A DNA stretch of 42,142 bases from the IMG/VR virus record IMGVR_UViG_3300042485_000684, positions 1 through 42,142 of that record; one strand, 5' to 3'. The translations under genes and the position numbers were made by a program. This stretch comes from a virus. A model generated the notes under the pieces. That model made no database searches, was not told the DNA's origin, and worked only from the letters and a program-made list of their open reading frames with translations. Below are positions 8,201 to 37,172 of the stretch, piece by piece. Each line of letters starts with the position of its first letter. Position 1 is the stretch's first letter.

Positions 8201-11200
8201 CCACTTGTTAACACAGTTAAATTAGCACCAGTCGATGATTGTGTTATGTAATCGCCGGCTGTTACAGTAACATTTCCACTTAATGCCACTGCCATAACTT
8301 TGTCAAACACATTTACTGCACCTGTGTTAGTCGAAACGGATAAGTTTGCATACAATGTAGTACCAACAAAAATATTTTGCTCAGCATTGTCAATCATTTT
8401 TAATGCTTGGCCATAGCCTATGTTTGCCGAGTATTCGCTAGTTGGTTTTACTAAGCGTTGACCTATCTCCCATGGGTGTGTTTTTTCGTATACTTTCCAT
8501 GTACCGCTTGGTTGCGTACCAAATGGTTGACCTTGTACCGCTGTTGTTTCAGCGTCGTCATCAATCCAAATCTTTTCACCAACTTTCCATTGATGTGGAG
8601 GAGTATATAAACGTGCATCTTCCATGTACTGGAATCGTATGCTGTCTAGCATAAACAACATACCGTCACCGTCGAGTGTGGTTAATTGTGTTGTATCACC
8701 AGAGTACTTGACTAATATATTATTAAGGTCAACTACACTTTCAACTTGATAGAATCCATCAAATTCTGTAGCAAAGCTACGAATTAAGAATATATCACCT
8801 GCAGATAAACCATGCGGTTCATCTGTGGTAAATGTCACAAATCCATCAAGTGAGTTAGATACTAAAAACACATGATTGTCAGTTTCTGATACTCGATAAA
8901 CATTCCAGTTTTGTGAAAAGTCTTTTGCACACCATATAGTGTAGCCAGTACCGATAGCATCTAATTGATTATTTAAATCTGTAAAATTAGCAAGATCAAA
9001 TATAGTAGTATCGACGTCGTCAATATTCACATATCCAGCAGTGGCGATATCATTATTATAATCACTTTGCGCATTTCTATTCAACGCAATAGTACCCGCA
9101 TATTGTTCAGTTGATTTATATAATTGTGATTTATTAAATGTAGTTACACCGTCACTACTTGAATCAGTTACAAATTTAGCAATCGCAGGATTGACTGAAA
9201 ATGCTTTTTCATCAAGTGCAATTTCAACGTATGGGTTAGTATCTAACGCACCGTATTCACCAACACGAATCGCCCATTCTTCGTAGAAATTTATAGCACT
9301 GCTTAAATTATTAAATTCTGCATTGGTTAATTGGTTAATTGCGTTGGCAGAACCTTTTTGTTTAATAAATCCTTTATACAATTCAATTTGCGTAGTGTCG
9401 CTTAATCCAAGATCTGCCAGATATTGACGTGGTTTAAATCCAATTAAACCATGGCTGTATTTGATTTGATCCGCATCTTTAAAGTTTGTATATGAATCAT
9501 AGTATACTTGAGATTTAGCAGCAATAGTAGCAAAGTTTGGTAACAATCCTTTTTTAATTTCACTTGTAGAAATTTGTTTCCAGTAGGCAAATTCAAATTC
9601 AATTGTTGCTGAAACATTTTGTAGTGCAACATAATATTGATTTTTATATTGTACTAAGTCGCCTTTTAAATAATCCTTGTTACCAGTCCATGCATCTATG
9701 TCACCAGAATTGTAAATGAAGCCCGGCGCACTTAAACTGCCGTCCCAGTCGGCTGTTTTTTGTCCAATTAATTTTAATCTAAATTGTCTATTACCAAGTT
9801 CTGGTTTGTATATAATATCATTGAACACTGTTGTATTATCAAATATTAATACATGTTCGTATTGCACTAGATTTAATTCAATATAGCCAATAACTGCATC
9901 GTTGGTTAATGTTAATTTAAACGCAGTCGGACTACGTAATACATTATAGTTTGTGGTCTTAACTAGTGCAAAATTTTGATCCAATACTTTAGAACCATAT
10001 TGACTATCTGTAATAGCATCAGTGATTGCACCAACAGTAATGGCATTTATCACATTGGCTACCGGACTTAACACTAAGATACTGCCGGGTGCCCAACCTT
10101 GTTGTGCCCAGAATAAGAATTCTTTAGTCGACAATTTCCAATTACGTGTTTCACCTAGTTGCTCATCAGTATCATTAAATGTGAAACCTTGCGCCATTAA
10201 ATGTCTTTCGTAACTAATTAAGAAATCAGCTACCTGTTGTTGAGTATTAAATTCGTAACCATATGGTACTGTTAGTTTTAAGTTTTGATAATCTCTAAAC
10301 ACAGTTACTGAATTGTTTAACACAGTAATTTTATATGCGTTTGTGTTTATAACACTTGGAATAATAGTGAAATATGGATTAGATAAATTATAGCCACGTA
10401 CACTATATCCGTTGGTAGTTTTTTCAACAATTACACCACTGTAGGCTATTTTATCAACCGGAGTTGATTTATACAAATGTACATTGTAGTTTTCGTTTGG
10501 TATAATAATACTATCATTTGTACTTGTTGGTGAACTTTGCTCTGCTAATACCTGTAGATATTTTTGGTCACTGAACCCGGCCATTTTATATGCAAGGTTA
10601 ACTTCGTAATTTTTCAATAACGGTGTAATAATAGTAGAAGGATTGATACCTTGATTCACTAGGAAATCAGCAATCCAGTTTATATAACCTGCTGTTCTAA
10701 CCACTGTGCCAGATGACGTGTCGCCATTGAAGGTCAATGATGTTTGTTTAATATGGTCATTTGTATCAGTTATATATTGTTCTAATACATTATTTTTTGA
10801 ATAACGTGATACATCCATTAATAAGCCAAAGTATCTAGCTGGTTTAGCCAATGCAAGTGCTTGTTGTGCAGCAAATGGATAATCACTACTATTGCGCCAT
10901 GCAGTTTCAACTGGTCCTTGTTGACCTACTGCCCATGCTGTTGCGGCTCTAGTAGAATTGAAAGACGCAGTTAGAATTGCTGCTGGACTTAATAAAAGTC
11001 CATTTACGTCTACAGGGATAACTGCTGATAACCCAGGACGAGCAAAAATAGTATCTATACCAGCACGCTCGCCATATTTAATTAACCCTAGTTCTAGGTC
11101 ATCCCATAGTAGTTTGTTACCACCTGTATAAGGTGCAGGGCCATATTCTTCTATCCACCATGATGGCATAGTAGAAAAACCTAACATTTCCCAAGGAGTC

Positions 11201-14200
11201 AAATGTGGACGTATTGTATCGTAGAAATATTGATAACAAGCTCTCCAACTACCAGGCAATATTTCACCATCGATTCTATCAACAAAACGACCATAGTTCC
11301 ATGTAAATGGATCATTACTTTCAAATGTATCATTGACTGTGAAATCAATTTTATTGTTACCAATCCAATTTAAGAAATTCTTAGACAATAATTGATTAGC
11401 ATCAGCTAACGAGTACTCACTTGTTCTAAATTTACCTGGCATAACTGCATATATGTCTCGATAACTATTATTATCGCGCAAGGTAATATTATTGTATATA
11501 CGTTTTTCTAATTCTAATACAAAACTATCTCTATAATCATCAAATGCTGGAGTTATGCTACCATCGTGTCCACGGATAACATTAATAGGTGTACGATACG
11601 TATCGTCTAAAAAGACCTCAGGAATAAATTTAGGATATAACCCTAACTTAGTTGGAGTTTCTGGTACATAAGATCCGTTTGTATCTTGATATTCTACAAT
11701 TTTAACATTGTCATCAACTTCTAATGTAACAGTATCTGTAAATGTTATTGCTGGACGATCTGTATCAAATGTATAATCTCTACCTAGTATCAATTGTACA
11801 TCATTTAAATAAACAAGTATTGCGTTATTGCTTAATGCAGACGCATCGAATACTGAAGTAATTTCATATGAACGTACCAATGGGTCAAATATTGTATAAC
11901 CAGTACCGTTAACAATATTTTTTAATGTACCATACGGTACCATATCACTGTAGAACCATGGGAATGTTTTGTTTTTAATCTTGTTAATTTCTGTTAAGAT
12001 TAAATCAACACTGGCCACAGGCTCAGTTGGTTGTATGCCTGATAATGTAGCACTCAATTCTAAGAATTTATTTTTAAATCTAGCGTATTCTTGTTGCGCA
12101 TAACGAATTGCATCGATAAAGTTTGTGCTGTCGTTTAATAAAAATAATGCAGCATTTGATATTGGTGCACTATGTTGCAGTATGTTGCCGCCTTGTGATT
12201 TAATCTCAATATCTCTAAGATTACTATCACTAAGAACATCACCTACTAATTCTGTACTATTTTGACTAAGCTCCACTAAGTGGTTTCTAATTTGCCCTAA
12301 TGTCAATGATGCTAAATCAATATTTTGCGCATTTAAATCTAAGTTTTGTGGCACTTGATATTGACCAAGCGCACTAATTTCGGTGCTATAAACTAAGATG
12401 TCAATCTTATCGCCAATCGCCGGCGCAGTAGACAATGTTAATGCATTATTTGTTAAAGTCCATTGCGTTGTTTTTAAGAATGTATTATTTTTATAAACTT
12501 TAACATGAGGAACAGATGCTGACGCTACAGGAGTAACATCAATTTTAAACGGACTATTAATACCATCATAGATGTATGTGATCAATTGATACTGTTTAAG
12601 TGGCTCAACTACTGTATTCCAATTATTTTTTGGAATCAATGTATTTCTATCTACGATTTGTTGTAGGAAACCAGTGGCAATTCGATCTGTGTATGCTACT
12701 CTATCACGTACATAGCTAAATGTATCTGTATCAAAATAGTTAGAAAATTCAATGTCGCCTTGCGCACGGAATGTTCTGTATTTTAATGGAAAGTACAGTA
12801 CAGTATCTGCTGTTGTACTTGTGCTGGTTCTATTGTAGCCAAATAATCGTGTACCTGCAAATGTACTTGATTCATATTCAGCCAAGCGTGTGCCGGCGGC
12901 ATCATACACATCAAATAACGGATCTTGTTGTAGACTGGTCTTTGTTTGGCTTTGTGTCCAAGTATCCCCGTTGTACCACCATGCTGTTCCTTTATACAAT
13001 CCTGCTTTTACTACTACAGTATCATAAATTTCATTGTTGGCATCGTCGGCAGGATTTAAATTTACGTACACAGGGCCTGTTAACAATCCCTGTTCATCAA
13101 GTTGAGTTTGTACTAAATTAATTACATAGATATTATCACGCACCACTGGATCAATATCGTTAGTAAATAGAATTCGCATGCCGTCGACTAAAGTAACTCC
13201 GCCTATAACAGTTAATACTTGTCCATTTAATTCGTTAAATGCATCTCGAGTAGTAGTATCTAAAATATCAATGGGACGTTTACCAATTCTACCAAAATTA
13301 AATAGTTGTAGGTCTGCTTCAAATTGTACAATTGGACGTTGGGCACGATATGTTTGATCATATGTAACCACTACGTTATTGTATTCAGCAGTTAATTTAA
13401 TCACGTCACGGTGAAACCAGCGATTACCTCGTGTCCACGGATTCAAATCTTTACTAGCACGATTAATTGTAATATATTCTGCATTAGACACATTACCCGG
13501 TAGACCATCTGGATAATTTAATGCTAGCTCATCATTGTATAACTCAGGAGTAACTAATAATTCTACATCAATTAGTTGTATACCAGTTGGTGCTCCTACG
13601 CCTTCAACATAATATTCTTTATTTTGATATGCAGCAGGAGTAACATCAGAGCCAAAACTTACTTTTAATCCACTGGTAAAAATTACTCCGTTGGGGCTAG
13701 TGTAGTTAGGTTTTCCTAATATGTCATTTTCAATATCAATTTCCCAACCAGCGATGTCAACAAGTTTAATTGTACCGTAGATAGAAGGATCACTACCGTC
13801 TTGAAAGTATAACGTATCTTGTATACTTGAAATTACAGGAACAACATGAAAAAATTCATCGTAATCTTTAAAGAATTCTTTATTAGCATTAACAAACCCG
13901 GATCTAATGTAGACTTTTTCGTTAAGTAATACATCCTGCACATGCACTAATCGAATTAGTGGATCGTCAATGTTGCCAATGTCATTAAACTGTACTCTCC
14001 ACACTCCGTAACGTTGATCAGTTGGGATTACTGTGCCAGCATCGTATCCCGATACAACTAATCCGGTAACTGGGTCAATAACTTCAGGCATGGTCCATGC
14101 TTCTTCGCCGCGACTTGTTAATAAGTTTTGATCGATGAATATTGCAGTCTTGCCATTTAGTTGACCAGTAATTCCTGCGTATGCCGGAAACTCTGCAAGA

Positions 14201-15021
14201 AATTGACTAACAGTACGATTTTGTATATCTGAATAAGCAAGAGGAACAGCATATTCCACATTGGCCACTACATTCATTAATACATATCGTTCTTGCGCTG
14301 TTGTCTGCGGAACATTAAATGTAATTGTACCTGTTTCTGCACCATTGTTAGTGACACCAAGTACATCGCGTGTGCTAATTGTTGGTGTTGCATTTACTAG
14401 GCCATCAACGCCAAGTTCAGTCTGTATCCAAAAGCCTGCACCAAGTTGATCAACTTCAAACGTATATTGTCCGCCACGTGCCAAGGTAATTGTATTTTTT
14501 ATTAGTCCGCCAGTAGTGAAATCGTAACGAGATATGTTTGCATTACGTGTAACTGTAAATGTTTTTTCTAAGTCTACTCCACTTGTATTAACATCAACCG
14601 GGTCCGGACCATCTTTAAGCCAGTAGTATTGGCTGAAGTTAACAAACTTATCAAAAGAGATCTGCGGATCAAAACTATAGTACTCGCCATCAAATAGTCT
14701 ATCATGATTTGAAGTTAATCCACTATAGTATTCAATTTTATTTAATATGTCATTATAACCAGCAAAGAATGTAATTTCTTTTTGTTCATTTCGAACTACT
14801 ATGCTTGGCTCAAGTTGATACTTTTGTCTGTTAGCTGAATTTTCAATTACGTAACTGTCTTTGTTTTTATATGTTGGCGCAAATGTTCTTCCGATATATC
14901 CATATATATTTCTTAAATTTGGTTCAGTGACTAACTGATCCATAGTAGCCGACAAGAACTTATTGTTAACGTCGGTTTGAAATATGGTAGGAAGAAAATT
15001 TGAAGTCTTTTTTGTCGCCAT
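2203..15021 (-). CDS. Giant (4272-aa) baseplate/tail-fibre-type structural protein
   Basis: One uninterrupted ORF of 12.8 kb. The N-terminus (LPTIFQTDVNNKFLSATMDQL, then KFVNFSQYYWLKDGPDP) is a block I associate with very large virion proteins of aquatic T4-like phages. Around residue 1790 (KGDLVQYKNQYYVAL) and again near 3710 (TANTAYTVGDIVTH) there are short modules resembling the chitin-binding type 3 / CBM5-12 fold. Residues of about 2380-2950 hold roughly five FG-GAP-like repeats (GYGFAFDELGHWLYVGAP, GSEFGYCIDASLNG, GARFGSSLTI, GDGFGTAIDIIGGYIIVSAP), which suggests a seven-bladed-type beta-propeller. Near 3640 there are GSGYTAEP-type repeats. A module of about 65 residues is duplicated at about 2245-2310 and 4085-4150. 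Its place directly after gp6 is where T4 carries gp7 and gp8, so it may combine wedge anchoring with an adhesive arm. That role is inference. Confidence 0.75.
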   Translation of the reverse strand: MATKKTSNFLPTIFQTDVNNKFLSATMDQLVTEPNLRNIYGYIGRTFAPTYKNKDSYVIENSANRQKYQLEPSIVVRNEQKEITFFAGYNDILNKIEYYSGLTSNHDRLFDGEYYSFDPQISFDKFVNFSQYYWLKDGPDPVDVNTSGVDLEKTFTVTRNANISRYDFTTGGLIKNTITLARGGQYTFEVDQLGAGFWIQTELGVDGLVNATPTISTRDVLGVTNNGAETGTITFNVPQTTAQERYVLMNVVANVEYAVPLAYSDIQNRTVSQFLAEFPAYAGITGQLNGKTAIFIDQNLLTSRGEEAWTMPEVIDPVTGLVVSGYDAGTVIPTDQRYGVWRVQFNDIGNIDDPLIRLVHVQDVLLNEKVYIRSGFVNANKEFFKDYDEFFHVVPVISSIQDTLYFQDGSDPSIYGTIKLVDIAGWEIDIENDILGKPNYTSPNGVIFTSGLKVSFGSDVTPAAYQNKEYYVEGVGAPTGIQLIDVELLVTPELYNDELALNYPDGLPGNVSNAEYITINRASKDLNPWTRGNRWFHRDVIKLTAEYNNVVVTYDQTYRAQRPIVQFEADLQLFNFGRIGKRPIDILDTTTRDAFNELNGQVLTVIGGVTLVDGMRILFTNDIDPVVRDNIYVINLVQTQLDEQGLLTGPVYVNLNPADDANNEIYDTVVVKAGLYKGTAWWYNGDTWTQSQTKTSLQQDPLFDVYDAAGTRLAEYESSTFAGTRLFGYNRTSTSTTADTVLYFPLKYRTFRAQGDIEFSNYFDTDTFSYVRDRVAYTDRIATGFLQQIVDRNTLIPKNNWNTVVEPLKQYQLITYIYDGINSPFKIDVTPVASASVPHVKVYKNNTFLKTTQWTLTNNALTLSTAPAIGDKIDILVYSTEISALGQYQVPQNLDLNAQNIDLASLTLGQIRNHLVELSQNSTELVGDVLSDSNLRDIEIKSQGGNILQHSAPISNAALFLLNDSTNFIDAIRYAQQEYARFKNKFLELSATLSGIQPTEPVASVDLILTEINKIKNKTFPWFYSDMVPYGTLKNIVNGTGYTIFDPLVRSYEITSVFDASALSNNAILVYLNDVQLILGRDYTFDTDRPAITFTDTVTLEVDDNVKIVEYQDTNGSYVPETPTKLGLYPKFIPEVFLDDTYRTPINVIRGHDGSITPAFDDYRDSFVLELEKRIYNNITLRDNNSYRDIYAVMPGKFRTSEYSLADANQLLSKNFLNWIGNNKIDFTVNDTFESNDPFTWNYGRFVDRIDGEILPGSWRACYQYFYDTIRPHLTPWEMLGFSTMPSWWIEEYGPAPYTGGNKLLWDDLELGLIKYGERAGIDTIFARPGLSAVIPVDVNGLLLSPAAILTASFNSTRAATAWAVGQQGPVETAWRNSSDYPFAAQQALALAKPARYFGLLMDVSRYSKNNVLEQYITDTNDHIKQTSLTFNGDTSSGTVVRTAGYINWIADFLVNQGINPSTIITPLLKNYEVNLAYKMAGFSDQKYLQVLAEQSSPTSTNDSIIIPNENYNVHLYKSTPVDKIAYSGVIVEKTTNGYSVRGYNLSNPYFTIIPSVINTNAYKITVLNNSVTVFRDYQNLKLTVPYGYEFNTQQQVADFLISYERHLMAQGFTFNDTDEQLGETRNWKLSTKEFLFWAQQGWAPGSILVLSPVANVINAITVGAITDAITDSQYGSKVLDQNFALVKTTNYNVLRSPTAFKLTLTNDAVIGYIELNLVQYEHVLIFDNTTVFNDIIYKPELGNRQFRLKLIGQKTADWDGSLSAPGFIYNSGDIDAWTGNKDYLKGDLVQYKNQYYVALQNVSATIEFEFAYWKQISTSEIKKGLLPNFATIAAKSQVYYDSYTNFKDADQIKYSHGLIGFKPRQYLADLGLSDTTQIELYKGFIKQKGSANAINQLTNAEFNNLSSAINFYEEWAIRVGEYGALDTNPYVEIALDEKAFSVNPAIAKFVTDSSSDGVTTFNKSQLYKSTEQYAGTIALNRNAQSDYNNDIATAGYVNIDDVDTTIFDLANFTDLNNQLDAIGTGYTIWCAKDFSQNWNVYRVSETDNHVFLVSNSLDGFVTFTTDEPHGLSAGDIFLIRSFATEFDGFYQVESVVDLNNILVKYSGDTTQLTTLDGDGMLFMLDSIRFQYMEDARLYTPPHQWKVGEKIWIDDDAETTAVQGQPFGTQPSGTWKVYEKTHPWEIGQRLVKPTSEYSANIGYGQALKMIDNAEQNIFVGTTLYANLSVSTNTGAVNVFDKVMAVALSGNVTVTAGDYITQSSTGANLTVLTSGANISNISLSYYGTTTLTTGINNGNIAINGSNVAVYPTTITNNVYVETTTITPDGANTFNYGSHIDTAVDGQQVRLAVNAPTSSGLAGAANVGLVYTYNKLEGETVWNRGQVIVGNVIATDGQFGYGFAFDELGHWLYVGAPYESTPKVYVYGLKRFVTSNIGTVTTPSSVSSVTVPFTPEVTDDANSLVVTSATRTYIPNIDYTLSGTTLDFSISANIPNATTLTISQGPYYALVETIDGPVGSEFGYCIDASLNGAQLGVGAPADTVNVAVFSDGITTVDRSIPVGTNTASITVDGNVLPRISYVENSNAGAVYVYDRVIEAFNSTNGTIYTTEETIADVHTVTIDDIETRDYTVTGANEITLFVPLGVGKNVKIETNKFTLLERLIGIDSLGGSLSAIQQGARFGSSLTICSNNCAFYIGAPFYNAGTVYNTGAVWKFHNKGTLYGINRGFTKNPTFTPGDTIRLDNFQITVTGTSLDSLIEDINDANLLGITAVNENGYLRLDSDKTVAKNRLRVLSGSGTVYADAGLAIFAFMQIIVNPYNSSDEYFGTKVILARNAYMLVISSDRGTTNTFTTFDSDTTVIDDDSTSFVDSVKASGSVYTYELYDDPRDMVEHPGRYAFCQQLDPTDLNTGDGFGTAIDIIGGYIIVSAPSDDTTITDGGSIYLFNNPTGRRGWSLIRYQQPTVDIESVNRMYLYSNLSNTILTTLEFIDPVKGKILGRAEQEIAYKTGYDPAVYNRGTNSAVSLNDSIFWSSTQIGQVWWNLSQLSYIDYEQDTLTYRSINWGRLFPGSTVEVLEWVESSYLPSAYVASGGEGIPKYEDDSAYVELAYVDAVTNIISIKYFYWVKNKTTVDPNNTTRRLPLAAIQDIIENPKNQGTPYAAIIQNNAFVLYNVGSYLSAQNTILHLDYNTVKNTNIIHSEYELVEKGNANSIISPKIINKLIDSLAGIDILGAEVPDPTLSAADKFGLGTRPRQAIFADRIAAYANLVEYVNSVLITKPIARNCDLTTISSSEAQPNIKLGEYDLKIATELELAYIDVAVLAVGYKVLVNQDTTRDNLWVLYELSTDKTWEVIQVQSYKTDLYWDYVDWYAPGYGIDTQLEYVVDTLTDALKLPVAVGDDVLVRVSSGGNRGWNLLVLNSDGQFDVVGIQDGTIQLKTSSGNFINNKTPTTEIRYIINALKDDIFVGELDTEFNKLFFVMINYLFNEQKYVDWIFKTSFISVSHKLRSLLQYPNYIKDNQTYYEDYITEVKPYSTKIREYSINYDSNDEFAGSVTDFDLPPYYDTETKVFRSPSGENVVKDEALWQTDTYSQWYANRNHQVESIVVEYGGSGYTAEPIVTIVGGGLAATGATARAIIDFDLGTVTSIEILTRGTGYFLTPTVLINGTNTTPATAYAVLKNNQIRTFDTTLKFDRISYTSSVQEWTANTAYTVGDIVTHIGSLAGAVRHAFIVNANITSGSTFVHTEDYTRYSSANFTNANDRIVGYYEPGASMPARDLTQLLRGIDYPGVKVQGLGFDQAPGFSGATPFDTGLFDQIQYDADGLPLLDDATVDTIIRSSYTDLALGTRAEDIDVVGGAYVDTYSSHAPEEMVPGIVFDTLDMQVYTKINGNVDVIAYRMFSNMMREESYLRIADAHATTLAAPLSLTDTEIVVTDASKLAEPFVDAIGIAKIAIPGVIFINGERITYYTRDLMTNTLGQIRRGTQGTATPVIQLAGTVVTDGSVDQIIPGTVANVVLSTTTPYTVTSTPSYYLSLSDSVTANVGDVITQTVSGASLTVAGIDSVARVLLVVRNNLNSLTFQDNYLELSGNITVSSGDYITQASTGANVTVLTSGANISNVSVSYYGITTLTTGKAGGNIAINGSNVAVYPTTVTGNVIVDTEIVINGNSTGNVYPLSIVPVGRNNDGIPFVDSNGNVTIAANIELHTTNVWYNLGSGVATDGTGFDGSTTVPVLFLKASTASNIVVTAIKDMITSEDAVNTLTTEDGNTIIED
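2573..2764 (-). repeat. Duplicated module in the giant gene, copy near the 3' end
   Basis: About 192 bases, closely similar at DNA and protein level to 8090-8282. Both copies encode GDYITQ(A/S)STGAN, VLTSGANISN, SYYG and GNIAINGSNVAVYPTT. The two copies lie about 5.5 kb apart in the same reading frame, which indicates an intragenic duplication. Confidence 0.8.
8090..8282 (-). repeat. Duplicated module in the giant gene, central copy
   Basis: Partner of the repeat at 2573-2764. The frame is kept and many differences are silent or conservative, so both copies appear to be under selection. This copy lies just before the FG-GAP-like propeller region. Confidence 0.8.
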
Positions 15022-26448: not shown

Positions 26449-27465
26449 ATGGCAAATTTATTTAAAAAAGCAGCAATTCTGACTGACATACATTTTGGCT
26501 TAAAGTCAAATAGTCAAACACACAACGATGATTGTTTAAACTTTGTTAAGTGGTTTATTAGCAAAGCTAAAGAAGAAGGTTGCGATGTTTGCTTTATGTT
26601 AGGTGATTGGCACAATAACCGCGCGGCAATTAATATCATTACGTTAAACTACAGCCTAACAGCCTTAGAGTTGTTGGGCCGAGCCTTTGAGCGTGTTATA
26701 TTCATTCCGGGCAATCATGATTTATATTATCGTGACAAGCGTGATATACAGTCAGCTGAATGGGCTAGACATATTCCTAACATTGAAATTATCAACGACT
26801 TCTATCAAGAGGGCGATGTTAGTATTGTGCCCTGGTTAGTAGGCGACGATCATAAAAAGATTCCTAAGATCAATGCCAAGTATATGTTTGGGCACTTTGA
26901 GTTGCCGGGCTACTATATGAATGCCATGGTACAGATGCCAGAGCACGGTGAGATTAGACGCGAGGACTTTGGGCATATTGATCATGTATACAGTGGACAC
27001 TTCCATAAACGTCAAACAGGTAAGAACATTACCTATGTAGGCAATGCGTTTCCGCACAACTATGCAGATGCAGGTGACGATGAACGTGGCATGATGATAT
27101 TAGAATGGGGCAATGAGCCAACGTTTCATGCTTGGCCAGATCAGCCTAAGTATCGTGTCTACACCTTAAGTGGCATACTACAAAGCCCAGAAGCATTACT
27201 GCAAAAAGGCATGCACTGTCGTGTAAACATCGATGTAGATATTTCATACGAAGAAGCAACGTTTATTAAAGAAACGTTTGTAGGCACTTACAATTTACGC
27301 GAGCTTACTTTAATTCCTGTTAAGCATACTGATATTGGCACAGATATTATGTTGGGCAATATTCAATTTGAAAGTATCGATACCATCGTAACAAGTCAAC
27401 TAACAGCTATTAACAGTGATCATTACAATCCGGCATTGTTATTAGACATCTACAGGAATCTATGA
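26449..27465 (+). CDS. 47: Recombination endonuclease subunit gp47 (SbcD/Mre11-like)
   Basis: A 338-residue calcineurin-type phosphoesterase with the metal-binding series in order: TDIHFG (about residue 12), GDWHNNR (56), PGNHDLYY (86), GHFELPG (146) and SGHFHKRQ (181). This is the Mre11/SbcD pattern and matches T4 gp47 (339 aa) in length. With gp46 it forms the nuclease-ATPase that resects DNA ends for recombination-dependent replication. The next gene starts inside its stop codon (ATGA). There is no convincing Shine-Dalgarno site at normal distance, and a -10-like box lies 6 bases before the ATG. Confidence 0.95.
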   Translation: MANLFKKAAILTDIHFGLKSNSQTHNDDCLNFVKWFISKAKEEGCDVCFMLGDWHNNRAAINIITLNYSLTALELLGRAFERVIFIPGNHDLYYRDKRDIQSAEWARHIPNIEIINDFYQEGDVSIVPWLVGDDHKKIPKINAKYMFGHFELPGYYMNAMVQMPEHGEIRREDFGHIDHVYSGHFHKRQTGKNITYVGNAFPHNYADAGDDERGMMILEWGNEPTFHAWPDQPKYRVYTLSGILQSPEALLQKGMHCRVNIDVDISYEEATFIKETFVGTYNLRELTLIPVKHTDIGTDIMLGNIQFESIDTIVTSQLTAINSDHYNPALLLDIYRNL

Positions 27466-28331
27466 AACGAGAATTACCGTTCTTAGAAACTATGATTACA
27501 CAATCTTGTAATCTAAGCTGTGAAGGTTGCACTAATTATAGTGATTATAATGTTAGTGGATCAGTACAGTGGGATAGTGCTAAAGAATGGATTTCGTCTT
27601 GGCTTAAACGTGTAAATATACCCGATTTTGGATTGATTGGCGGAGAACCGTTGTTAAACAAAGAAGCAGAACAATGGTTAGTTGGATGTAGAGAACTAAT
27701 GCCAGCTAGTCAATTAAGATTTACTACAAACGGGACTATTTTGTCTCAAAAAACTAGTATATTAGATACTATATTTGATGTAGGTAACTGTGTTTTTAAA
27801 ATAACTGTACATCAACCTGATCAATTTTATATTCAAGAAGCACTTAATAAAGTGTTCAGTTATGCAGATTGGGAGCCGGTAACAGAATTTGGTATACAGC
27901 GATGGCGTGCTAAAAATAATGTGCGCTTTCAAATTAATTTCCCTAAGACGTTTTATAAAACGTTTAAAGGTAATTATTCTAATATGCTGCCGCACAATTC
28001 TAAACCAGAAGATGCATTTGCAATATGTTGTCAGAAAACATGCCCGTTGCTGTATAACGGTAAAATTTACAAGTGCAGTTCTATTGCATTATTAGCTAAA
28101 ACATTAGCAGATTGGCATCAAACTCAATCTGAATGGGATCCATATTTAGATTATAAAGGAATCGATCTCAACTGCTCTGATATTGAATTAGATAACTTTA
28201 TTAAAGGATTTAATACACCAGAAAGTATTTGCCAAATGTGTCCAAGTATTAGCGATATTAGTAGTAAATTAGATCATGTTAATACAGTAACATCCAAAGC
28301 ATCGTGGATCAAATTAAATGTTATCAATTAA
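27462..28331 (+). CDS. Radical SAM protein with SPASM/twitch-like C-terminus (nested between gp47 and gp46)
   Basis: A 289-residue protein. The [4Fe-4S]/SAM motif CNLSCEGC (CxxxCxxC) is at residues 16-23. FGLIGGEPLL near residue 57 is the GGEP strand that holds the SAM amino group, and LRFTTNGT is the next strand pattern. The C-terminal cysteines CPLLYNGKIYKC (about 194-205) and CQMC (about 257-260) resemble the auxiliary-cluster region of SPASM/twitch enzymes. The fold is clear but the substrate is unknown; peptide or sugar modification are both common in this family. It overlaps gp47 by 4 bases (ATGA) and the next ORF by 14, so all four genes from gp47 look translationally coupled. Confidence 0.85.
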   Translation: MKRELPFLETMITQSCNLSCEGCTNYSDYNVSGSVQWDSAKEWISSWLKRVNIPDFGLIGGEPLLNKEAEQWLVGCRELMPASQLRFTTNGTILSQKTSILDTIFDVGNCVFKITVHQPDQFYIQEALNKVFSYADWEPVTEFGIQRWRAKNNVRFQINFPKTFYKTFKGNYSNMLPHNSKPEDAFAICCQKTCPLLYNGKIYKCSSIALLAKTLADWHQTQSEWDPYLDYKGIDLNCSDIELDNFIKGFNTPESICQMCPSISDISSKLDHVNTVTSKASWIKLNVIN

Positions 28332-29431: not shown

Positions 29432-31201
29432 ATGTTTAAAATAAAAAATCTCACAGTTAAAAACTTTATGAGCGTAGGTAATGCTACGCAAGCGGTTGAG
29501 TTTGACCGTAACGATCTCACGTTAGTATTAGGAGTCAACGTTGACTTAGGTGGTGATGACAGTGGCGCACGTAACGGCACTGGTAAAACAACTATCATCA
29601 ATGCCTTAAGCTACAGTCTGTTTGGACAAGCATTAACTAATATTAAACGTGATAACTTAATTAATAAAACCAATGGTAAGAACATGTTGGTTACTGTTGA
29701 GTTTGAACATAACGGACAAGATTATAAGATTGAACGTGGACGTAAGCCTAACATAATGAAGTTTTATGTAGGCGACGAAGAAAAAGAAATTACAGACGAG
29801 AGTCAAGGCGACAGTAGAGAAACGCAGGCTGAAATTGAACGCTTGTTAAGTATGTCGCATAATATGTTTAAGCACATTGTTGCGCTTAATACCTATACCG
29901 AACCGTTCCTTAGTCTTAAAGCTAATGACCAACGTGAAATAATCGAACAGTTACTTGGCATCACTGTATTAAGTGAAAAGGCAGAAAAACTCAAAGAGTT
30001 GGGTCGTGCTACCAAGGATGCAATACAGCAAGAAGAGTTCAATATTAAAGCAATAAACGACGCAAATGGCCGTATTCAAGAGCAAATCGACAGCTTAAAA
30101 CGTCGGCAAACTATGTGGACTACTAAGCATGCAGATGACACAGTAAAACTACAAAATGCCCTTACAGAACTACGTAAAATTGATATCGAACAAGAGCTAG
30201 CGGCACATACTGCGCTTACTGCTTACAATCAACAGCGCAAAGACCTAGATGATTTATCCAAAGCTATATTACGTAGTGAAGCAGATATTGCCCGTGAACA
30301 AAAAACCATAGACAAAGTTACTAAAGAAATTTCTGATCTTGAAGCACATACTTGTTATGCTTGCGGACAGCATTTTCATGATAGCAAGCATGAAGAAGTG
30401 TTAGCGGCTAAACGTGCATCACTTGAAACTGCTACGAATCAATATTTGTCAGATGAATCACAGTTGCTTGCACTTACTGGTGCTAAGGCAGAAATTGGCC
30501 CACTAGGTGCTCAACCTCGAGTATATTACGATAAAGAAGCAGATGCGTTTCATCACAAGGGTTCTATTACCAGTTTAGAAACACAGTTAGCCGCTAAGGC
30601 TACAGAAGTTGATCCATATGCTGAACAAATTGAAGAAATGACACAGACTGCCTTAGTAGAAACTGATTATACTACTATGAACGAGCTAGTTAAGTTAAAA
30701 GAACATCAAGACTTCTTGTTAAAACTATTAACCAACAAAGATAGCTTTATCCGTAAACGTATCATTGATCAAAACTTGTTGCATTTAAACGCACGTCTAA
30801 GTCAATACTTGGATCGTATTGGATTGCCACACACAGTAACGTTCTTAAATGATTTAAGCGTTGAGATTACAGAGTTAGGACGTGAGTTAGACTTTGATAA
30901 CTTGTCACGTGGTGAACGTAATCGCTTGATATTAAGTTTATCTTGGGCATTCCGTGATGTTTGGGAAAGTTTATACAATCCTATTAACTTATTGTTCATT
31001 GATGAACTTATTGATAGTGGTATGGATAGTAGTGGAGTTGAAAGTTCATTGAGCATACTTAAAAAGATGTCACGTGAGCATGAGAAAAGTATTTGGCTTG
31101 TTTCGCATAAAGATGAACTTGCAGGTCGAGTTAACAATATTATGACTGTAACCAAAGAGAATGGGTTTACATCATATAGCACAGATGTTGATGTTATCTA
31201 A
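29432..31201 (+). CDS. 46: Recombination endonuclease subunit gp46 (SbcC/Rad50-like ATPase)
   Basis: A 589-residue SMC-like ATPase. Walker A is GARNGTGKTT near residue 46. A coiled-coil arm interrupted by the zinc hook CYACGQ (near 308) follows, then the ABC signature LSRGERNR (about 490) and Walker B LLFIDELID (about 518) with a late histidine switch in WLVSHKDEL. Length and order agree with T4 gp46 (560 aa). It pairs with gp47 to process DNA ends. In this phage the two genes are separated by three inserted ORFs, and gp46 has its own promoter. The downstream radical-SAM gene starts within its last codons. Confidence 0.95.
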   Translation: MFKIKNLTVKNFMSVGNATQAVEFDRNDLTLVLGVNVDLGGDDSGARNGTGKTTIINALSYSLFGQALTNIKRDNLINKTNGKNMLVTVEFEHNGQDYKIERGRKPNIMKFYVGDEEKEITDESQGDSRETQAEIERLLSMSHNMFKHIVALNTYTEPFLSLKANDQREIIEQLLGITVLSEKAEKLKELGRATKDAIQQEEFNIKAINDANGRIQEQIDSLKRRQTMWTTKHADDTVKLQNALTELRKIDIEQELAAHTALTAYNQQRKDLDDLSKAILRSEADIAREQKTIDKVTKEISDLEAHTCYACGQHFHDSKHEEVLAAKRASLETATNQYLSDESQLLALTGAKAEIGPLGAQPRVYYDKEADAFHHKGSITSLETQLAAKATEVDPYAEQIEEMTQTALVETDYTTMNELVKLKEHQDFLLKLLTNKDSFIRKRIIDQNLLHLNARLSQYLDRIGLPHTVTFLNDLSVEITELGRELDFDNLSRGERNRLILSLSWAFRDVWESLYNPINLLFIDELIDSGMDSSGVESSLSILKKMSREHEKSIWLVSHKDELAGRVNNIMTVTKENGFTSYSTDVDVI

Positions 31202-32075
31202 TATTAAAGTATTGCATATCGAACCAACCGACGCATGCAATGCGGCCTGTCCACAGTGTGCGAGAGAAACAGATACAACGTTCAATAAGAATGTTTTGCA
31301 TCATCTTACTGTAGATCAAATTAAAAAATTAGTTAGCGAAGATGTTATTCGCAATCTTGATAAAATGTTTATGTGCGGCGACTACGGTGATCCAGCAGCT
31401 GGCAAACACACATTAGAAATTTTTAAATATTTTAGAAGTGTAAATCCTAAAATAATATTAGGAATGAATACAAATGGTGGGCTAAGATCTACTAACTGGT
31501 GGAGAGAATTAGCCACAGTTATGCATCAACCTAGTACTGCTCCGCAAGAATATGTAGTGTGGAGTATCGATGGGTTAGCTGACACTAATCATATCTATCG
31601 AATCAATACAGAATGGAATAAAATAATAGCAAATGCACAGGCATTTATACAAGCAGGTGGGCTTGCTCATTGGGAGATGTTAGTGTTTAAACACAACGAA
31701 CATCAGGTTGACCAAGCACAGCAATTAGCAAGAGAGCTTGGATTTAAATGGTTTCGCGCCAAGGTCAGCAAAAGATTTAACAGTACCCCAATATCATTCC
31801 TACAATCTCCGTCCGGGTGGGCAAATCCTACTGTGACTAGTGGTACTATAGAGTGTGCTGCACTTAAAGATCAAAGTTTATATATATCAGCTAAAGGTAT
31901 CATGCATCCGTGTTGTTGGCTTGGAACTACTTCACATACTATCAACGATTTTACTAATATACAGCAGTCGTGGTTATCGCTTAATCCCAATAATATTTGC
32001 GTTAATACCTGTACTAAAAATAAATTAGGTACAAGTTTTACAAATCAATGGCAGAGAGAAATAGAATTTAATTAA
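31191..32075 (+). CDS. Second radical SAM protein with SPASM/twitch-like C-terminus
   Basis: From the ATG at 31191 the protein has 294 residues and begins MLSNIKVLHIEPTDACNA. The CxxxCxxC motif CNAACPQC is at residues 16-23, the same spacing from the N-terminus as in the first radical-SAM protein. MCGDYGDPAAG takes the place of the GGEP strand, and LGMNTNGG and VVWSIDGL are further barrel strands. The C-terminal cysteines (IECAALKDQ, GIMHPCCWLG, ICVNTC) suggest an auxiliary cluster. ATGs at 31161 and 31185 are alternatives; I prefer 31191 because the family block starts right after it. It overlaps the end of gp46. The substrate is unknown. It is not a recent copy of the first enzyme, since the sequences are clearly different. 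Confidence 0.83.
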   Translation: MLSNIKVLHIEPTDACNAACPQCARETDTTFNKNVLHHLTVDQIKKLVSEDVIRNLDKMFMCGDYGDPAAGKHTLEIFKYFRSVNPKIILGMNTNGGLRSTNWWRELATVMHQPSTAPQEYVVWSIDGLADTNHIYRINTEWNKIIANAQAFIQAGGLAHWEMLVFKHNEHQVDQAQQLARELGFKWFRAKVSKRFNSTPISFLQSPSGWANPTVTSGTIECAALKDQSLYISAKGIMHPCCWLGTTSHTINDFTNIQQSWLSLNPNNICVNTCTKNKLGTSFTNQWQREIEFN

Positions 32076-32765: not shown

Positions 32766-32790
32766 CCAACGACACTAAACGTATTACAAT
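32762..32790 (+). promoter_or_regulatory. Sigma70-type promoter of the large structured RNA
   Basis: TTGACC at 32762-32767, exactly 17 bases, then TACAAT at 32785-32790: five of six consensus bases in each box with optimal spacing. The expected start is an A near 32797. No ribosome site and ORF follow, only the structured region, so it appears dedicated to a non-coding RNA. Confidence 0.72.
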
Positions 32791-32796
32791 AAACAC

Positions 32797-33362
32797 ACAG
32801 CTCTCAGACACCAAGTCACTCTCATAGAAACAAATTCCAACTCCGTAGTAAAGTAGTAAATGTTTTAACAGCCCTATTGCAGATTAAGTTCTGTATTCAG
32901 AGGAGATCGTGCTCGCGTAATGGCCGCACGTGGAACGTGTAGACTAGACTACACACTGAATGGCGACCGTGTATTGTGCTATAAAAAGCGAATCAACAAT
33001 ATAAAAATTAGGTGTAAAAACCGAATGATTTGGGCACTGTGAAAAAGATACAACCCATATGATGACATAGTTTGGCTAACTACGGATTATGCATCAACCG
33101 TCGCAAGAAGCAAGAGTAGGGAGTACAGGGCGACCGCTTCCGTGTAAATGAATATAATCTCTTTTAGTTAGTATGATGAAGCACTCGGATGAAGTCGCTC
33201 TGTTTTACTTTGCCTGTAATGGGTGAAGTATGACTATAATCTGGATGAAGCAGTTCTAAAGTCAAAAGCAATACAGTAAGTATTAAAGTAATTTAAATTA
33301 ATTAGATTAGAAGAAAAAGCATTGAGCGATAGCGATAATGCAGATGTCGTTAGACATCTTTT
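32797..33362 (+). ncRNA. Large structured non-coding RNA (about 566 nt), class not recognised
   Basis: A gene-free stretch between a consensus-like promoter and an intrinsic terminator. From 32878 it can be folded into a chain of helices: 32878-83/32890-95 (hairpin); 32896-900/32956-60 enclosing 32908-12/32926-30 and 32937-42/32949-54 (three-way junction); 32963-67/33100-104 (GCGAC/GTCGC) enclosing 32971-77/32996-33002, 33031-34/33054-57 and 33061-69/33088-95 with one bulge; 33130-34/33194-98 (again GCGAC/GTCGC) with 33139-42/33186-89; 33206-14/33222-30 (nine pairs); 33231-35/33260-64; 33319-23/33337-41; then the terminator. By hand count 39 of 70 bases at 32901-32970 are G or C, well above the AT-rich neighbours. 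GATGAAG recurs three times, once as a whole hairpin loop. I see no tRNA T-arm, RNase P, tmRNA or intron core. Size and phage context recall the GOLLD and ROOL 'ornate' RNAs, but I cannot show homology. The fold is by eye. Confidence 0.72.
33342..33362 (+). terminator. Intrinsic terminator of the large RNA
   Basis: AGATGTC, loop GTTA, GACATCT, then TTT (four T in a row including the stem end). A further hairpin, GCATT/AATGC (33319-33341), sits directly before it. It ends rightward transcription ahead of the convergent gp26 unit. Confidence 0.75.
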
Positions 33363-33420
33363 AAGTATATTAAAGTTTTTGCTGTTATAATGACTTTGAC
33401 AGGTGTATATTATAGTCAAT

Positions 33421-33444
33421 AAAAAAGCACAATAAATGTGCTTT
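33421..33444 (-). terminator. Intrinsic terminator of the gp26 unit
   Basis: The minus strand reads AAAGCACA, loop TTTAT, TGTGCTTT, then further T residues (six in a row from within the stem end). It lies 10 bases after the stop codon of the -1 frame ORF. This supports that ORF being part of the transcription unit. Confidence 0.82.
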
Positions 33445-33453
33445 AGTATTCTA

Positions 33454-33690
33454 TTAGAAAAATGGCATCCCACTTTTTTTGGTTGTTTCCATATTTTCTT
33501 TAATTATTTTTGATATTAGTTCTCTTTCTTGTTGACTTAACATCATTGCATCTTCGTAACTTATTCCCCCTCGCATATACCAGGAAATTCGCAACGCATC
33601 ATCTTTATAGGCCCTTATCTCTTTTTCGTAGCCGTCTAACAGTTCTACGATTGCATCGTTGTCTAGTGTTAAGAGCCTACTGCGAAAAAA
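33454..33690 (-). CDS. -1 frame extension of gp26 (probably expressed by programmed frameshift)
   Basis: A 78-codon stretch in the -1 frame of gp26, open from a TGA at 33702-33700 to TAA at 33456-33454. It reads ...LLDGYEKEIRAYKDDALRIS, WYMRGGISYEDAMMLSQQER, ELISKIIKENMETTKKSGMP, FF. This looks like the conserved small protein found after gp26 in aquatic T4-like phages (the gp51 position in T4). There is no ATG, GTG or TTG before the conserved part; the first TTG falls inside KDDALRISW and the first ATG after WY. Translation could arrive by -1 slippage at 33690-33684, giving a gp26 fusion of about 359 residues. A non-canonical start (for example CTG at 33642) is the alternative. A terminator follows immediately. 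Confidence 0.7.
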   Translation of the reverse strand, partial: FFRSRLLTLDNDAIVELLDGYEKEIRAYKDDALRISWYMRGGISYEDAMMLSQQERELISKIIKENMETTKKSGMPFF

Positions 33691-34532
33691 CTTGCAAAAT
33701 CAAATTCAACCGTTACACTAAATTCTGCGTTACAGCTATGACAATTAACATCGATTGGCTTAATACCGCCTTGTTTACCTAATTCTGTTAATGTAGCCTT
33801 AATTGTTTTAATTACATTAGAATCACAATTACTGTAGAATTCATTGATAAATGCTTCGTCGGATACAATACTACCGTCGGGCATTTCAATATAATCAGTA
33901 CTACCTGTTAATAGTGATACATTTAAATCAATAATTTTAGATAATTGTTGATCAAAAACTTTTTTAAGTTCTTCTGGGTTATCGTTTAATTGACCTAACG
34001 TTTTCATTATTTGCTGTTCTTCGAACGCAATCATATTAGATTTATTAACATTGAAATATGCCTGTGGTTTAAGTTTAATTTTTAATTCATCAACTTTAAC
34101 CTTTTGTGTATATACAGGTGCAGTAATATTGCTTAATATAACACTTAAATCGATAGCATAGTCGCTAGTCTCACTACATTTTGGACAGGTAGCACCAAAA
34201 TCCATTTGATTACCGTAGCTGGCAATACGTATAGCAATAATAGCTGAATCAACATCGATGCTAGGCATCATCCATGCATCCTTAATATTTGGACAACAGC
34301 TTTCAATTACATTAACTACACCTTGCCCGTTAAGCAATGCATCTGGAGTTTTAAGTGTAATTTCATCTTTTGTACTCATAGGTAACACTGCAATTTCATT
34401 GTTTAACGGTAGGTCAATTGAGCCTTCAGGCCAATGTGCTCCGCCACTAGGCAATTTTAAATATAATGCAGGTTGCCGAAAGTGTTTAGCCAACGGATTA
34501 GTTGGTGCAAATGACTGAGTTTGATTCACCAT
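33669..34532 (-). CDS. 26: Baseplate hub/tail assembly protein gp26
   Basis: A 287-residue protein with the gp26 family pattern: LYLKLPSGGAHWPEG near residue 30, EIAVLPMSTKDEITLKTPDA, LLNGQGVVNVIESCCPNIKD. Two cysteine pairs (CPKC near residue 138 and CHSC near 267) probably bind one zinc. T4 gp26 is shorter (208 aa). In T4, gp26 acts in hub assembly with gp51, gp28 and gp29. Here it is the only recognisable gene of a short leftward unit flanked by a late promoter and a terminator, divergent from the tape-measure-like gene. The last codons AGT TTT TTC GCA contain a U UUU UUC heptamer, four codons before the TAA run-out. Confidence 0.88.
   Translation of the reverse strand: MVNQTQSFAPTNPLAKHFRQPALYLKLPSGGAHWPEGSIDLPLNNEIAVLPMSTKDEITLKTPDALLNGQGVVNVIESCCPNIKDAWMMPSIDVDSAIIAIRIASYGNQMDFGATCPKCSETSDYAIDLSVILSNITAPVYTQKVKVDELKIKLKPQAYFNVNKSNMIAFEEQQIMKTLGQLNDNPEELKKVFDQQLSKIIDLNVSLLTGSTDYIEMPDGSIVSDEAFINEFYSNCDSNVIKTIKATLTELGKQGGIKPIDVNCHSCNAEFSVTVEFDFASFFAVGS
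33684..33690 (-). promoter_or_regulatory. Putative -1 ribosomal frameshift heptamer in gp26
   Basis: The minus strand reads T TTT TTC in gp26 phase (X XXY YYZ). It lies inside the 31-base overlap between the opening of the -1 ORF (33699) and the gp26 stop (33669). A small hairpin ACGAT-GCA-ATCGT lies about 24 bases downstream, farther than usual for a stimulator. No upstream Shine-Dalgarno-like stimulator is obvious. Confidence 0.55.
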
Positions 34533-34543
34533 GATTTATTTCC

Positions 34544-34551
34544 TATAAATA
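34544..34551 (+). promoter_or_regulatory. Late promoter (TATAAATA) of the tape-measure-like gene
   Basis: Perfect TATAAATA on the plus strand, 55 bases before the ATG at 34607. The expected start near 34558 lies between this box and the opposing minus-strand box. Confidence 0.7.
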
Positions 34552-34571: not shown

Positions 34572-34579
34572 TATTTATA
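34572..34579 (-). promoter_or_regulatory. Late promoter (TATAAATA) of gp26
   Basis: Perfect TATAAATA on the minus strand, 39 bases before the gp26 ATG at 34532. It faces the plus-strand box at 34544-34551 only 20 bases away, so the two transcripts would have complementary first bases and polymerases could not occupy both promoters at once. Confidence 0.7.
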
Positions 34580-34606: not shown

Positions 34607-37162
34607 ATGGCTGATATTGATTTTACAACGATGCAACAAGAAATTCAGGCAATGGCCGAGAGATTTGGTACGACCACTGATGGGTTAAGTGATTTCATTA
34701 AAGTTACCGGCAAAGGTACAAAAGAATTTAAAAAGCAAATTGAAGATCTTAATAAAGAAATTAAGAAAGGTCAAGCTGGTTACGCCCAACAGAAAAAAGT
34801 ATTAGACGAATTAAATGATGCACTGTCTGAATTAGGTGATACCACCGATGATGCTGCAAAAACAAGCAAAAAACAATCATTGTTAGCTGAGCGTGATGCT
34901 TTAGCGCATTCTGCAATGATGCGTGGAGTTACGGAAGATGTAGCTGACGGAGTAACCAAATCAACAGTATCTATGGTTCAGGGTGCTGGTGCATTTGTTA
35001 AAGGTCTGCAGGCAAATCAATCAGCGGCACAATTATCAGGCGATTTATTTAAAATAGGAATTGATGTTGCGGCTGCAGGAATAAAAACTGCAGGTGGCGC
35101 CGCTGAGAAATTCGGTAGCAAAATGATGGACGCTAAAAACCCATTTGTTGCAGCAATTGGTATGGTTACCACTGGGTTGGGTATGGTTGCAAACGCAACT
35201 GCGGAAACTGCTGCCAAAGTAGCAAAATTTGCTGTTGACGTAGCACAGGTAGAAGTAGAAAAAACATACAAAGCATTTAATTCAATGAGTGCTAGTGGTG
35301 CTATGTTTGCTGATGGTATGACCGGTATGCGTAATGCTGCTGGTGCAGCAGGCATGACAGTTGATTTATTTGCTAATGTATTAAAGAATCAAAGCGCAAA
35401 CATAGGTGCTAGTGGATTGGGTATAAACGAAGGTGCTAAACGAATTGGCGGTGCACTAACCGCTGGTGGTGCATCAATGAAGAAAAATTTACTTAATCTT
35501 GGTTACGGGTTTGAGGAACAAGCTGAATTAGTTGCAGAAACAATGAAATCTATGCGTGGTAGCACATCAGGACCACTGAGAGCAAGTAATCAGCAAGTAG
35601 CAGAACAAACACAAAAATATGCAGAAAATTTACGTATCATTGCTGCTATAACCGGCGAAGATGCTAAGAAAAAAATGGCTCAAGTGCAAGATGAAGCAAA
35701 TCAACTTGCGTTTCAACAAAAATTAGCAAAAAAATCTCCAGAAGAACAAGCCGCAATTATGCGAGCTTTCTCAAACATGAATTCGTTACAACGTAAGAAT
35801 TTTATGGATATGGTTAACTTTGGCAGTGTGATTAATTCTCAAGGTGCATCTGCAGCAGCTTTAAGTGGTGGCCTGCGTGATAGTGTATCAGAAGCATATC
35901 AAAACTATCAACAAGGTACATTAGATGATGCAAAAATGCGTAATATTAATGCTCGTGAAAACGGGAGAATGCAAAAAGAATTCTTAGATCAAACTAGCAT
36001 TGGGTTGGTAGATGCTGCCGGAATACCTGGTCACGCAAGTGACTTAGCTAAATCGTTTATGCAATCAATTAATGAAATTAAACTAGCTACTCCTGAAGCA
36101 ATTAAAGCCGGGGAAAAAGCGGCTAAAGACCAAGAAAAAACTACCGATGGATTAACTAAAGGTGTAGTTGACGCAGAAACTGCTGCAATGGAGTTAAAAA
36201 AATCTCTACAAAACATATTAACTCCGGCAATCATGGATTTTGCTAATCTTTCTAAAAAGATGCTGCGTAGTGTTCAAGATACATTGGATGAGTATGGTTA
36301 TGGTAAAACTAAAGAACAAAAAGCTTCTGATGAGAAGAACACTAGAATATTAAAAAATCAATATACTAAAGAGTACGGCGGCTTTGGCGAAATGCGATAT
36401 CAACAAGATTTAGCCGCATGGAATAAAGAACAAGCACGAAATAAAGAACTACAGCAACTTAAAGAAGACGGTGATATCGAAGGATACAATGCAGAATTAG
36501 CTAAGATTGCTGATGAAAAGAAACGCATGGAAAATCTACGTGCTATGGGCATGGCTCAACCTGAACGAGCACCTAGCATGATAGAAAACTACATGAAAGG
36601 TATTAGTAAACATGCTAACGGTGGTTCAATACGAGCCGGCGCTACTGGAATAGTAGGTGAAGCAGGGCCTGAGCTTGTCAGCGGTCCTGCAAGTGTAATA
36701 AGTGCCGCAACAACTGAAAAGTTTATAACAGCCGCAAACACAACAAACACTGACACAGTTAAAGTCTTGCAAGGTGCTATACGATCTTTAGAAAGCATGA
36801 TGTCAGGGCTTAAAAGAGTTAAAGCTGAAGAAAGTGAAGATCTTGCAAGCATGCTCTACGAAGGAACTCTAGGAGGATCTGATTTTAAACCTGCAACGTG
36901 GGCAACAAACAGCAGCATAACCGCACAAGGCGGTGCACAAGGGATGGCTGAAATGATGAAGGGCTGGGTAGCTGACCTGCAAAATCCAGAAGAGCAGCGT
37001 AATAGTAGCGGTGCTAGCGTAGTGCAAGATTCTGCAAGTAACGAGCACATTAAGAGCCTGGCAGAAAATACTATTAGAATGGTTGAAGAAATGAAACGTA
37101 TGAATGAAGCTATGTATACTAATAACAAGTATACATCGGGAATTTTACAGAACAGCTATTAG
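34607..37162 (+). CDS. Tail tape-measure-like protein
   Basis: An 851-residue protein. Residues of about 30-80 are charged and helical (EFKKQIEDLNKEIKKGQAGY). Residues of about 110-300 are long Ala/Gly-rich helices with hydrophobic patches, and a charged coiled region follows. Near residue 680, HANGGSIRAGATGIVGEAGP followed by ELVSGPASVIS is the 'GEAGPE' signature common near the C-terminus of tape-measure proteins. In T4, gp29 fixes tail length and starts in the hub; this protein is longer (851 versus 590 aa) and shows no clear gp29 sequence match, so gp29 is the functional guess. It lies divergent from gp26 and just before gp20, with its own late promoter. Confidence 0.68.
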   Translation: MADIDFTTMQQEIQAMAERFGTTTDGLSDFIKVTGKGTKEFKKQIEDLNKEIKKGQAGYAQQKKVLDELNDALSELGDTTDDAAKTSKKQSLLAERDALAHSAMMRGVTEDVADGVTKSTVSMVQGAGAFVKGLQANQSAAQLSGDLFKIGIDVAAAGIKTAGGAAEKFGSKMMDAKNPFVAAIGMVTTGLGMVANATAETAAKVAKFAVDVAQVEVEKTYKAFNSMSASGAMFADGMTGMRNAAGAAGMTVDLFANVLKNQSANIGASGLGINEGAKRIGGALTAGGASMKKNLLNLGYGFEEQAELVAETMKSMRGSTSGPLRASNQQVAEQTQKYAENLRIIAAITGEDAKKKMAQVQDEANQLAFQQKLAKKSPEEQAAIMRAFSNMNSLQRKNFMDMVNFGSVINSQGASAAALSGGLRDSVSEAYQNYQQGTLDDAKMRNINARENGRMQKEFLDQTSIGLVDAAGIPGHASDLAKSFMQSINEIKLATPEAIKAGEKAAKDQEKTTDGLTKGVVDAETAAMELKKSLQNILTPAIMDFANLSKKMLRSVQDTLDEYGYGKTKEQKASDEKNTRILKNQYTKEYGGFGEMRYQQDLAAWNKEQARNKELQQLKEDGDIEGYNAELAKIADEKKRMENLRAMGMAQPERAPSMIENYMKGISKHANGGSIRAGATGIVGEAGPELVSGPASVISAATTEKFITAANTTNTDTVKVLQGAIRSLESMMSGLKRVKAEESEDLASMLYEGTLGGSDFKPATWATNSSITAQGGAQGMAEMMKGWVADLQNPEEQRNSSGASVVQDSASNEHIKSLAENTIRMVEEMKRMNEAMYTNNKYTSGILQNSY

Positions 37163-37164
37163 GC

Positions 37165-37172
37165 TATAAATA
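37165..37172 (+). promoter_or_regulatory. Late promoter (TATAAATA) of gp20
   Basis: CTATAAATACAC, a perfect match, two bases after the stop of the tape-measure-like gene. AAAGAGAA lies between it and the ATG at 37197. It is the clearest late promoter in the window and probably drives the head gene series. Confidence 0.78.

Follow-up and report, generated by a model that had tools for sequence, protein, structure and literature searches.

The gp26 homologue of the virus record IMGVR_UViG_3300042485_000684 very probably undergoes programmed −1 ribosomal frameshifting close to its 3′ end (rough probability 0.9), with gp26 being the short tail-assembly chaperone TAC-N and its fusion to a −1 frame extension being the long form TAC-NC. 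The window analysed here is the entire record, 42,142 nt in length. Both parts of this reading had been put forward in the initial annotation of this DNA. Programmed frameshifting is supported because the slippery heptamer, the frame, the length of the extension and a predicted downstream stem are conserved, whereas the tail-assembly chaperone reading is supported by apparent collinearity with T4 gp51 and by a single PF12322 gene in place of the two found in T4. What the sequence itself provides is the frame, the heptamer, the absence of a start codon in the window, purifying selection on the extension, the covarying stem and the apparent collinearity with gp51.

The gp26 unit and its −1 frame

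The features of the gp26 unit and its neighbour are the following:

33669..34532, minus strand: gp26 homologue, proposed TAC-N (short tail-assembly chaperone), 287 aa, ATG start with AGGA upstream
33684..33690, minus strand: slippery heptamer U_UUU_UUC (TTTTTTC), in gp26 phase, kept in 84/84 relatives
33669..33671, minus strand: unshifted gp26 stop (TAA), 4 codons past the heptamer
33454..33690, minus strand: −1 frame extension with its stop, proposed TAC-C domain, 78 aa from the shift site, FFRSRLL...SGMPFF
33424..33444, minus strand: intrinsic-terminator-like hairpin closing the unit, AAAGCACA..UGUGCUUU, then UUUAUUG
34572..34579, minus strand: T4-type late promoter motif TATAAATA upstream of gp26, one of three in the window
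34607..37162, plus strand: tape-measure-like protein, 851 aa, GIVGEAGPELV motif, divergently transcribed neighbour of gp26

As had been described, a stop-to-stop ORF of 81 codons (33454-33699, minus strand) lies in the −1 frame of gp26 and overlaps it by 31 bases. The first T of the heptamer occupies the third position of a gp26 codon, matching the X_XXY_YYZ requirement, and the 3′ end of gp26 reads ...GCA AGT TTT TTC GCA GTA GGC TCT TAA. After the slip the protein would read ...FDFASFF-RSRLLTLDNDAIVELL... to SGMPFF, for a fusion of 359 aa in total. The reported lack of a start codon was also confirmed for the window, where no ATG, GTG or TTG occurs in the −1 ORF ahead of its conserved part, the first possible start being a TTG located 35 codons in (32 codons after the heptamer) and the first ATG being the M of WYMRGG. 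The heptamer itself is common (TTTTTTC occurs 13 times in the window as a bare 7-mer vs 13.7 expected by chance), so that the evidence is carried by its phase and its conservation. The terminator claimed just after this ORF corresponds to a terminator-like hairpin with a T tail, about 10 bases past the stop of the −1 ORF.

The 851-aa tape-measure-like protein, a weakly supported candidate for the tape measure itself, gave no significant family match, and the RaK2 counterpart of its gene, found at the same position, is annotated as similar to tape measure protein. The initial annotation had likened this neighbourhood to that of the lambda G/GT chaperones; the adjacency stands, but the unit is not in the lambda gene order because it is divergent from the tape-measure-like gene. 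The heptamer of lambda gpG/gpGT is G/A-rich, in contrast to the U_UUU_UUC of the window, and neither a sequence link nor a fold link to the lambda proteins was found.

Only three TATAAATA late-promoter motifs are present in the window, vs 8.3 expected, and all of them are intergenic: 34544-34551 (plus), 34572-34579 (minus) and 37165-37172 (plus), each closely preceding one gene (tape-measure-like, gp26 and portal, respectively).

Downstream of the −1 ORF, positions 32766-33453 contain no convincing ORF and house, apart from the frameshift claim, a conserved structured RNA. This candidate new family, of about 224 nt (33026-33248, plus strand), lies between a segE-like gene and the terminator of the gp26 unit; it occurs as one strong copy per record and, wherever both are found, on the opposite strand and downstream of the gp26 unit, at distances from about 70 nt to more than 3 kb. 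An alignment of 12 sequences contained 46 pairs, 19 of them with compensatory changes, and 95% of the cells were paired (0/500 shuffles as high); invariant G-U pairs favour the plus strand, and the core GAGTAGGGGGTACCGGTCAACCGCCTCCG is near-invariant. No Rfam family matched the structured RNA, no blastn match was obtained in 50,697 phage records, and its covariance model, under strict filters, gave no hit in T4, S-CAM8, 121Q, RaK2, PA5oct, XbC2, Atu_ph07 or Phosso; at least 120 IMG/VR stretches, some of them contigs of about 340 kb, contain the exact GAGTAGGGGGTACCGGTCAACCGCCTCCG core. Elsewhere in the window, two radical SAM-like genes (27462-28331 and 31161-32075, plus strand; Cys motifs judged by eye) sit among the gp47-like (26449) and gp46-like (29432) recombination genes, and a single ORF of 4272 aa (2203-15021, minus strand) probably encodes a giant structural protein.

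Protein family of gp26 and comparison with T4 gp51

The gp26 product matched PF12322 T4_baseplate (E=1.4e-18; 67.8 bits, cut-off 24.5) and phrog_150, named baseplate hub (E=1.1e-20). Its AlphaFold2 model (pLDDT 87) showed no match at E<=0.001 in a Foldseek search of the PDB, so that the search gave no link by fold to either lambda gpG or HK97 gp13; its named viral structure matches were nearly all baseplate/hub or uncharacterised phage proteins. The extension was modelled as helical (pLDDT 84). No match was found for this model among viral models by Foldseek, and none that was significant for the window's extension in Pfam, PHROGs and NCBIfam; the sequence search of the PDB returned no convincing match, its hits being chiefly designed proteins with weak E.

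T4 gp26 and T4 gp51 both match PF12322, the TAC-N domain thus being common to the window and to both T4 proteins. In phrog_150, T4 gp26 covers positions 14-235 and gp51 positions 13-280, and in a profile alignment of the two (probability 96.6%) gp51 runs about 46 residues past the end of gp26. The fused family and the gp51 family gave one collinear alignment of 198 columns that reaches the C-terminus of gp51, with modest statistics (E 8.9e-5, probability only 60%), and within this same alignment the ...WYMRGGISYEDAMMLSQQERELISKIIKEN of the fused family pairs with a gp51 segment of 31 residues. The extension alone did not match gp51 significantly. The long form of the window would thus be collinear with gp51.

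The baseplate and hub names carried by PF12322 and phrog_150 raise the question of whether the frameshift, although real, produces baseplate-hub or other structural parts instead of tape-measure chaperones. The gp26 model has no fold relative in the PDB, which is in line with such a role, and genetic work reported in PMC3004832 places T4 gp26 in the hub; the same source, however, also names T4 gp26 and gp51 among the hub assembly chaperones, and describes gp51 as required yet absent from the particle. Furthermore, a short and a long form related by a −1 shift, encoded beside a tape-measure-like gene, are typical of tail-assembly chaperones, and the published assignment for T4-like phages, in the accounts of it given by later papers, is TAC. 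We therefore regard a purely structural role of the pair as unlikely. The chaperone function of gp26 and its fusion is proposed because of their homology to T4 gp26 and gp51 and of the TAC assignment by Vladimirov et al. (2022).

Conservation of the proposed shift site and of a predicted downstream stem

A search of IMG/VR with the −1 ORF yielded 92 confirmed relatives, 80 of which were taken into the comparison; together with named phages they gave 84 loci with a readable gp26 end. T_TTT_TTC was found in phase within the last 20 gp26 codons in all of them (84/84), at gp26 identities down to about 32%. Among 29 representatives (below 60% gp26 identity), the two Phe codons are always TTT and TTC, in this order, and the base ahead of them is always T, whichever residue is encoded there (S, N, T, A, H, R or D). 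Calculated from the codon usage of the same genes, the joint probability of this conservation is about 10^-29 when the 29 lineages are treated as independent, which is an over-statement because they share ancestry. The extension, described earlier as a conserved phage protein, measures 72-79 aa in all representatives and 78 aa in most, and its conservation begins at the FFR of the slip site. It is under purifying selection, with identities of.556,.700 and.375 at codon positions 1 to 3, third positions being the most variable.

Jumbo phages have the same arrangement: RaK2, 121Q, PA5oct and Atu_ph07 encode the same gp26 family, with the in-phase TTTTTTC and a homologous −1 extension, and RaK2, 121Q, PA5oct and XbC2 have portal and tape-measure-like neighbours as in the window. 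They differ from it in the size of the extension, which is 72-75 aa in 121Q, PA5oct, XbC2 and RaK2, and in its annotation at the jumbo phage gp26 loci, either as separate hypothetical genes or not at all. The −1 extension has been missed, truncated or mislabelled in public genomes.

Annotation as a separate gene in 121Q, XbC2 and Phosso would correspond to translation of the −1 ORF through termination-reinitiation; the window would have to use a non-AUG codon for this, and the relatives ATG, GTG or TTG. In 21/29 representatives a start codon of some kind, mostly TTG, lies no later than residue 8 of the extension, and in 10/29 an ATG occupies this region or lies farther upstream within the overlap. 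Of the two junction features proposed for checking in related phages, the heptamer persists in all of the loci, and the missing start holds in the window and in part of the representatives. In three loci (L064, L081, L082) the heptamer coexists with an ATGA overlap whose ATG lies three codons past the slip site, and therefore a fusion and a free small protein could both be made; likewise, some separate translation may take place in other relatives with nearby start codons. As a general explanation, however, reinitiation is very unlikely. The window offers none of the three start codons for 32 codons past the slip site, conservation begins at that site, upstream of the candidate starts, and the heptamer, needless for separate translation, is kept even where an ATG is present. 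A separate ATG-started gene lacking the heptamer, the arrangement that the initial annotation had named as contrary to frameshifting, was found in none of the 84 loci. Among more distant relatives, a small ORF follows gp26 with no in-phase heptamer in Serratia phage Kevin and in Pseudomonas phage Cygsa01; the small gene of Cygsa01 begins at a TAATG overlap.

Downstream of the heptamer, an 11-bp helix is predicted within 84 nt in the window, starting about 5-6 nt past the heptamer:

33670..33680, minus strand: 5′ arm of the predicted stem, GUAGGCUCUUA, its core GGCUCUU starting 6 nt after the heptamer
33607..33617, minus strand: 3′ arm of the predicted stem, UAAGGGCCUAU

In 15 sequences of the window's clade, 87.9% of the helix cells were paired and 15 cells were compensatory (0/500 shuffles as high), as in the change from GGCUCUUGA/UCAAGAGCC to GGCUUUUGA/UCAAAAGCC in L015 and L026; sliding the stem partners by 1-3 columns reduced pairing to only 30-55%. 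The 84 nt past the heptamer folded with a mean z of −2.39 against a synonymous-codon null in the 29 representatives, in comparison with 0.02 for the next 84 nt, used as control; the downstream fold reached p<=0.05 in 21/29 representatives and was not significant in 8/29. Only a weak common stem was obtained with RNAalifold from all 24 same-length representatives because the clades use different stems at about the same place; the fold was tested per sequence and within the window's clade. The single Rfam match over the frameshift region (PK-BYV, E 0.58) was at chance level. In the window's clade, then, the predicted structure lies at the 5-9 nt spacing downstream of the heptamer, and the covarying stem makes frameshifting at this locus directly testable.

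The conserved T run just ahead of the gp26 stop might also generate the fusion through slippage of RNA polymerase on the six T, yielding a fusion mRNA in place of ribosomal slippage. A run of six T is generally too short for efficient polymerase slippage, and the run is usually only six T long. Moreover, conservation extends to the C at the seventh base and to the codon phase, and the stem covaries at the spacing expected for ribosomes, so that we give this origin of the fusion slightly less credit still than reinitiation. Finally, a sequencing indel or a decayed gene in a single clone, as an ORF without a start codon might suggest, is refuted by the identical junction in independent contigs, in cultured phages such as Atu_ph07 and RaK2, and in the nearest relatives (IMG/VR contigs, gp26 89-94% identical), where the gp26 stop is TAG instead of TAA.

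Under programmed −1 frameshifting, a single late mRNA would give rise to two proteins. Most ribosomes would end at the gp26 stop (287 aa, TAC-N), whereas a minority would pause at the stem-loop, which begins about 5-6 nt past the heptamer, move back by one base at U_UUU_UUC (Phe-Phe), bypass the stop four codons on and add a 76-residue helical C-terminal domain, producing a minor 359-aa fusion (TAC-NC). The shift event, its efficiency and the chaperone function are what we infer from the locus. The two forms would most likely act as chaperones that cover the tape-measure protein and bring in tail or hub proteins, as lambda gpG/gpGT do and as has been proposed for T4 gp26/gp51; if the division of labour follows that of gpG/gpGT, described in PMC5009743, the short form may coat the tape measure and the long form recruit tail subunits.

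T4, cyanophages and a possible origin of the two arrangements

PF12322 genes number two in T4 (26 and 51) and one in each of 19 other records, among them every frameshift-type record searched; these 19 comprise 8 named complete phage genomes, whereas the IMG/VR records and the window may be fragments. No heptamer was found at the gp26 end in T4 and its close relatives among the T4-type phages examined. The short and long forms of T4 are thus separate genes, in contrast to the single gene with an apparent −1 shift of the window.

Frameshifting is reportedly described, in the abstract of the Vladimirov study, as conserved in several T4-like groups, with genes 26 and 51 being a separate pair in T4. 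TAC genes of T4-like phages were identified by Vladimirov, Gautam and Davidson (2022; Virology 566:9-15, doi 10.1016/j.virol.2021.11.003), as cited in PMC10885494 and PMC12846349. According to the PRFect paper (PMC10885494), that study found one short and one long gene and no frameshift in some T4-like phages, and according to PMC12846349 it reported polyT slippery sequences in the TAC-N genes of T4-like phages, a likeness to the site in the window. Frameshifting of T4-like chaperones had thus been proposed for several groups by 2022, and the present data, on comparative sequence grounds, provide a well-supported case for it in a large environmental lineage; they usefully add to the known picture a covarying stem and a T4 arrangement that is likely to be derived.

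Cyanophage gp26 loci (S-CAM8 and relatives) resemble the window in having TTTTTTC in phase and, in the −1 frame, a conserved extension about 60-69 aa long; the heptamer and the open extension are present in 75/81 readable gp26 ends. They differ in that their N-domain forms a separate clade and their downstream stem is weaker (mean z −1.48 vs −0.80 in the next 84 nt).

The N-domain tree joins T4 gp26 and gp51 as sister groups (95/88) with the cyanophages adjoining, and midpoint rooting places the window's lineage on the other side from T4 and the cyanophages. If this root is right, frameshifting is represented on either side of it, and T4 acquired its arrangement through a later duplication. 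We lean towards UUUUUUC frameshifting being ancestral for the gp26 chaperone of the T4 superfamily, with the T4 pair as a derived duplication and the stem rebuilt by each lineage around a fixed heptamer. The G-T frameshift has been described as widely conserved "except T4" (PMC5009743); T4 has long been listed as the exception, the locus studied here points to frameshifting in a T4-related environmental lineage, and the midpoint-rooted gp26/gp51 tree suggests how T4 came to be that exception.

Two further observations concern the cyanophage-type sites. Cyanophage S-SCSM1 (L101, near 3670-3874) keeps TTTTTTC and has the conserved extension in the +1 and not the −1 frame, for which a sequencing error, a different shift and a separate gene are candidate explanations. 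Four other loci (L180-L183) carry T_TTT_TTG or T_TTT_TTA with the −1 extension still open and are, as read from their sequences, natural variants of the slip site.
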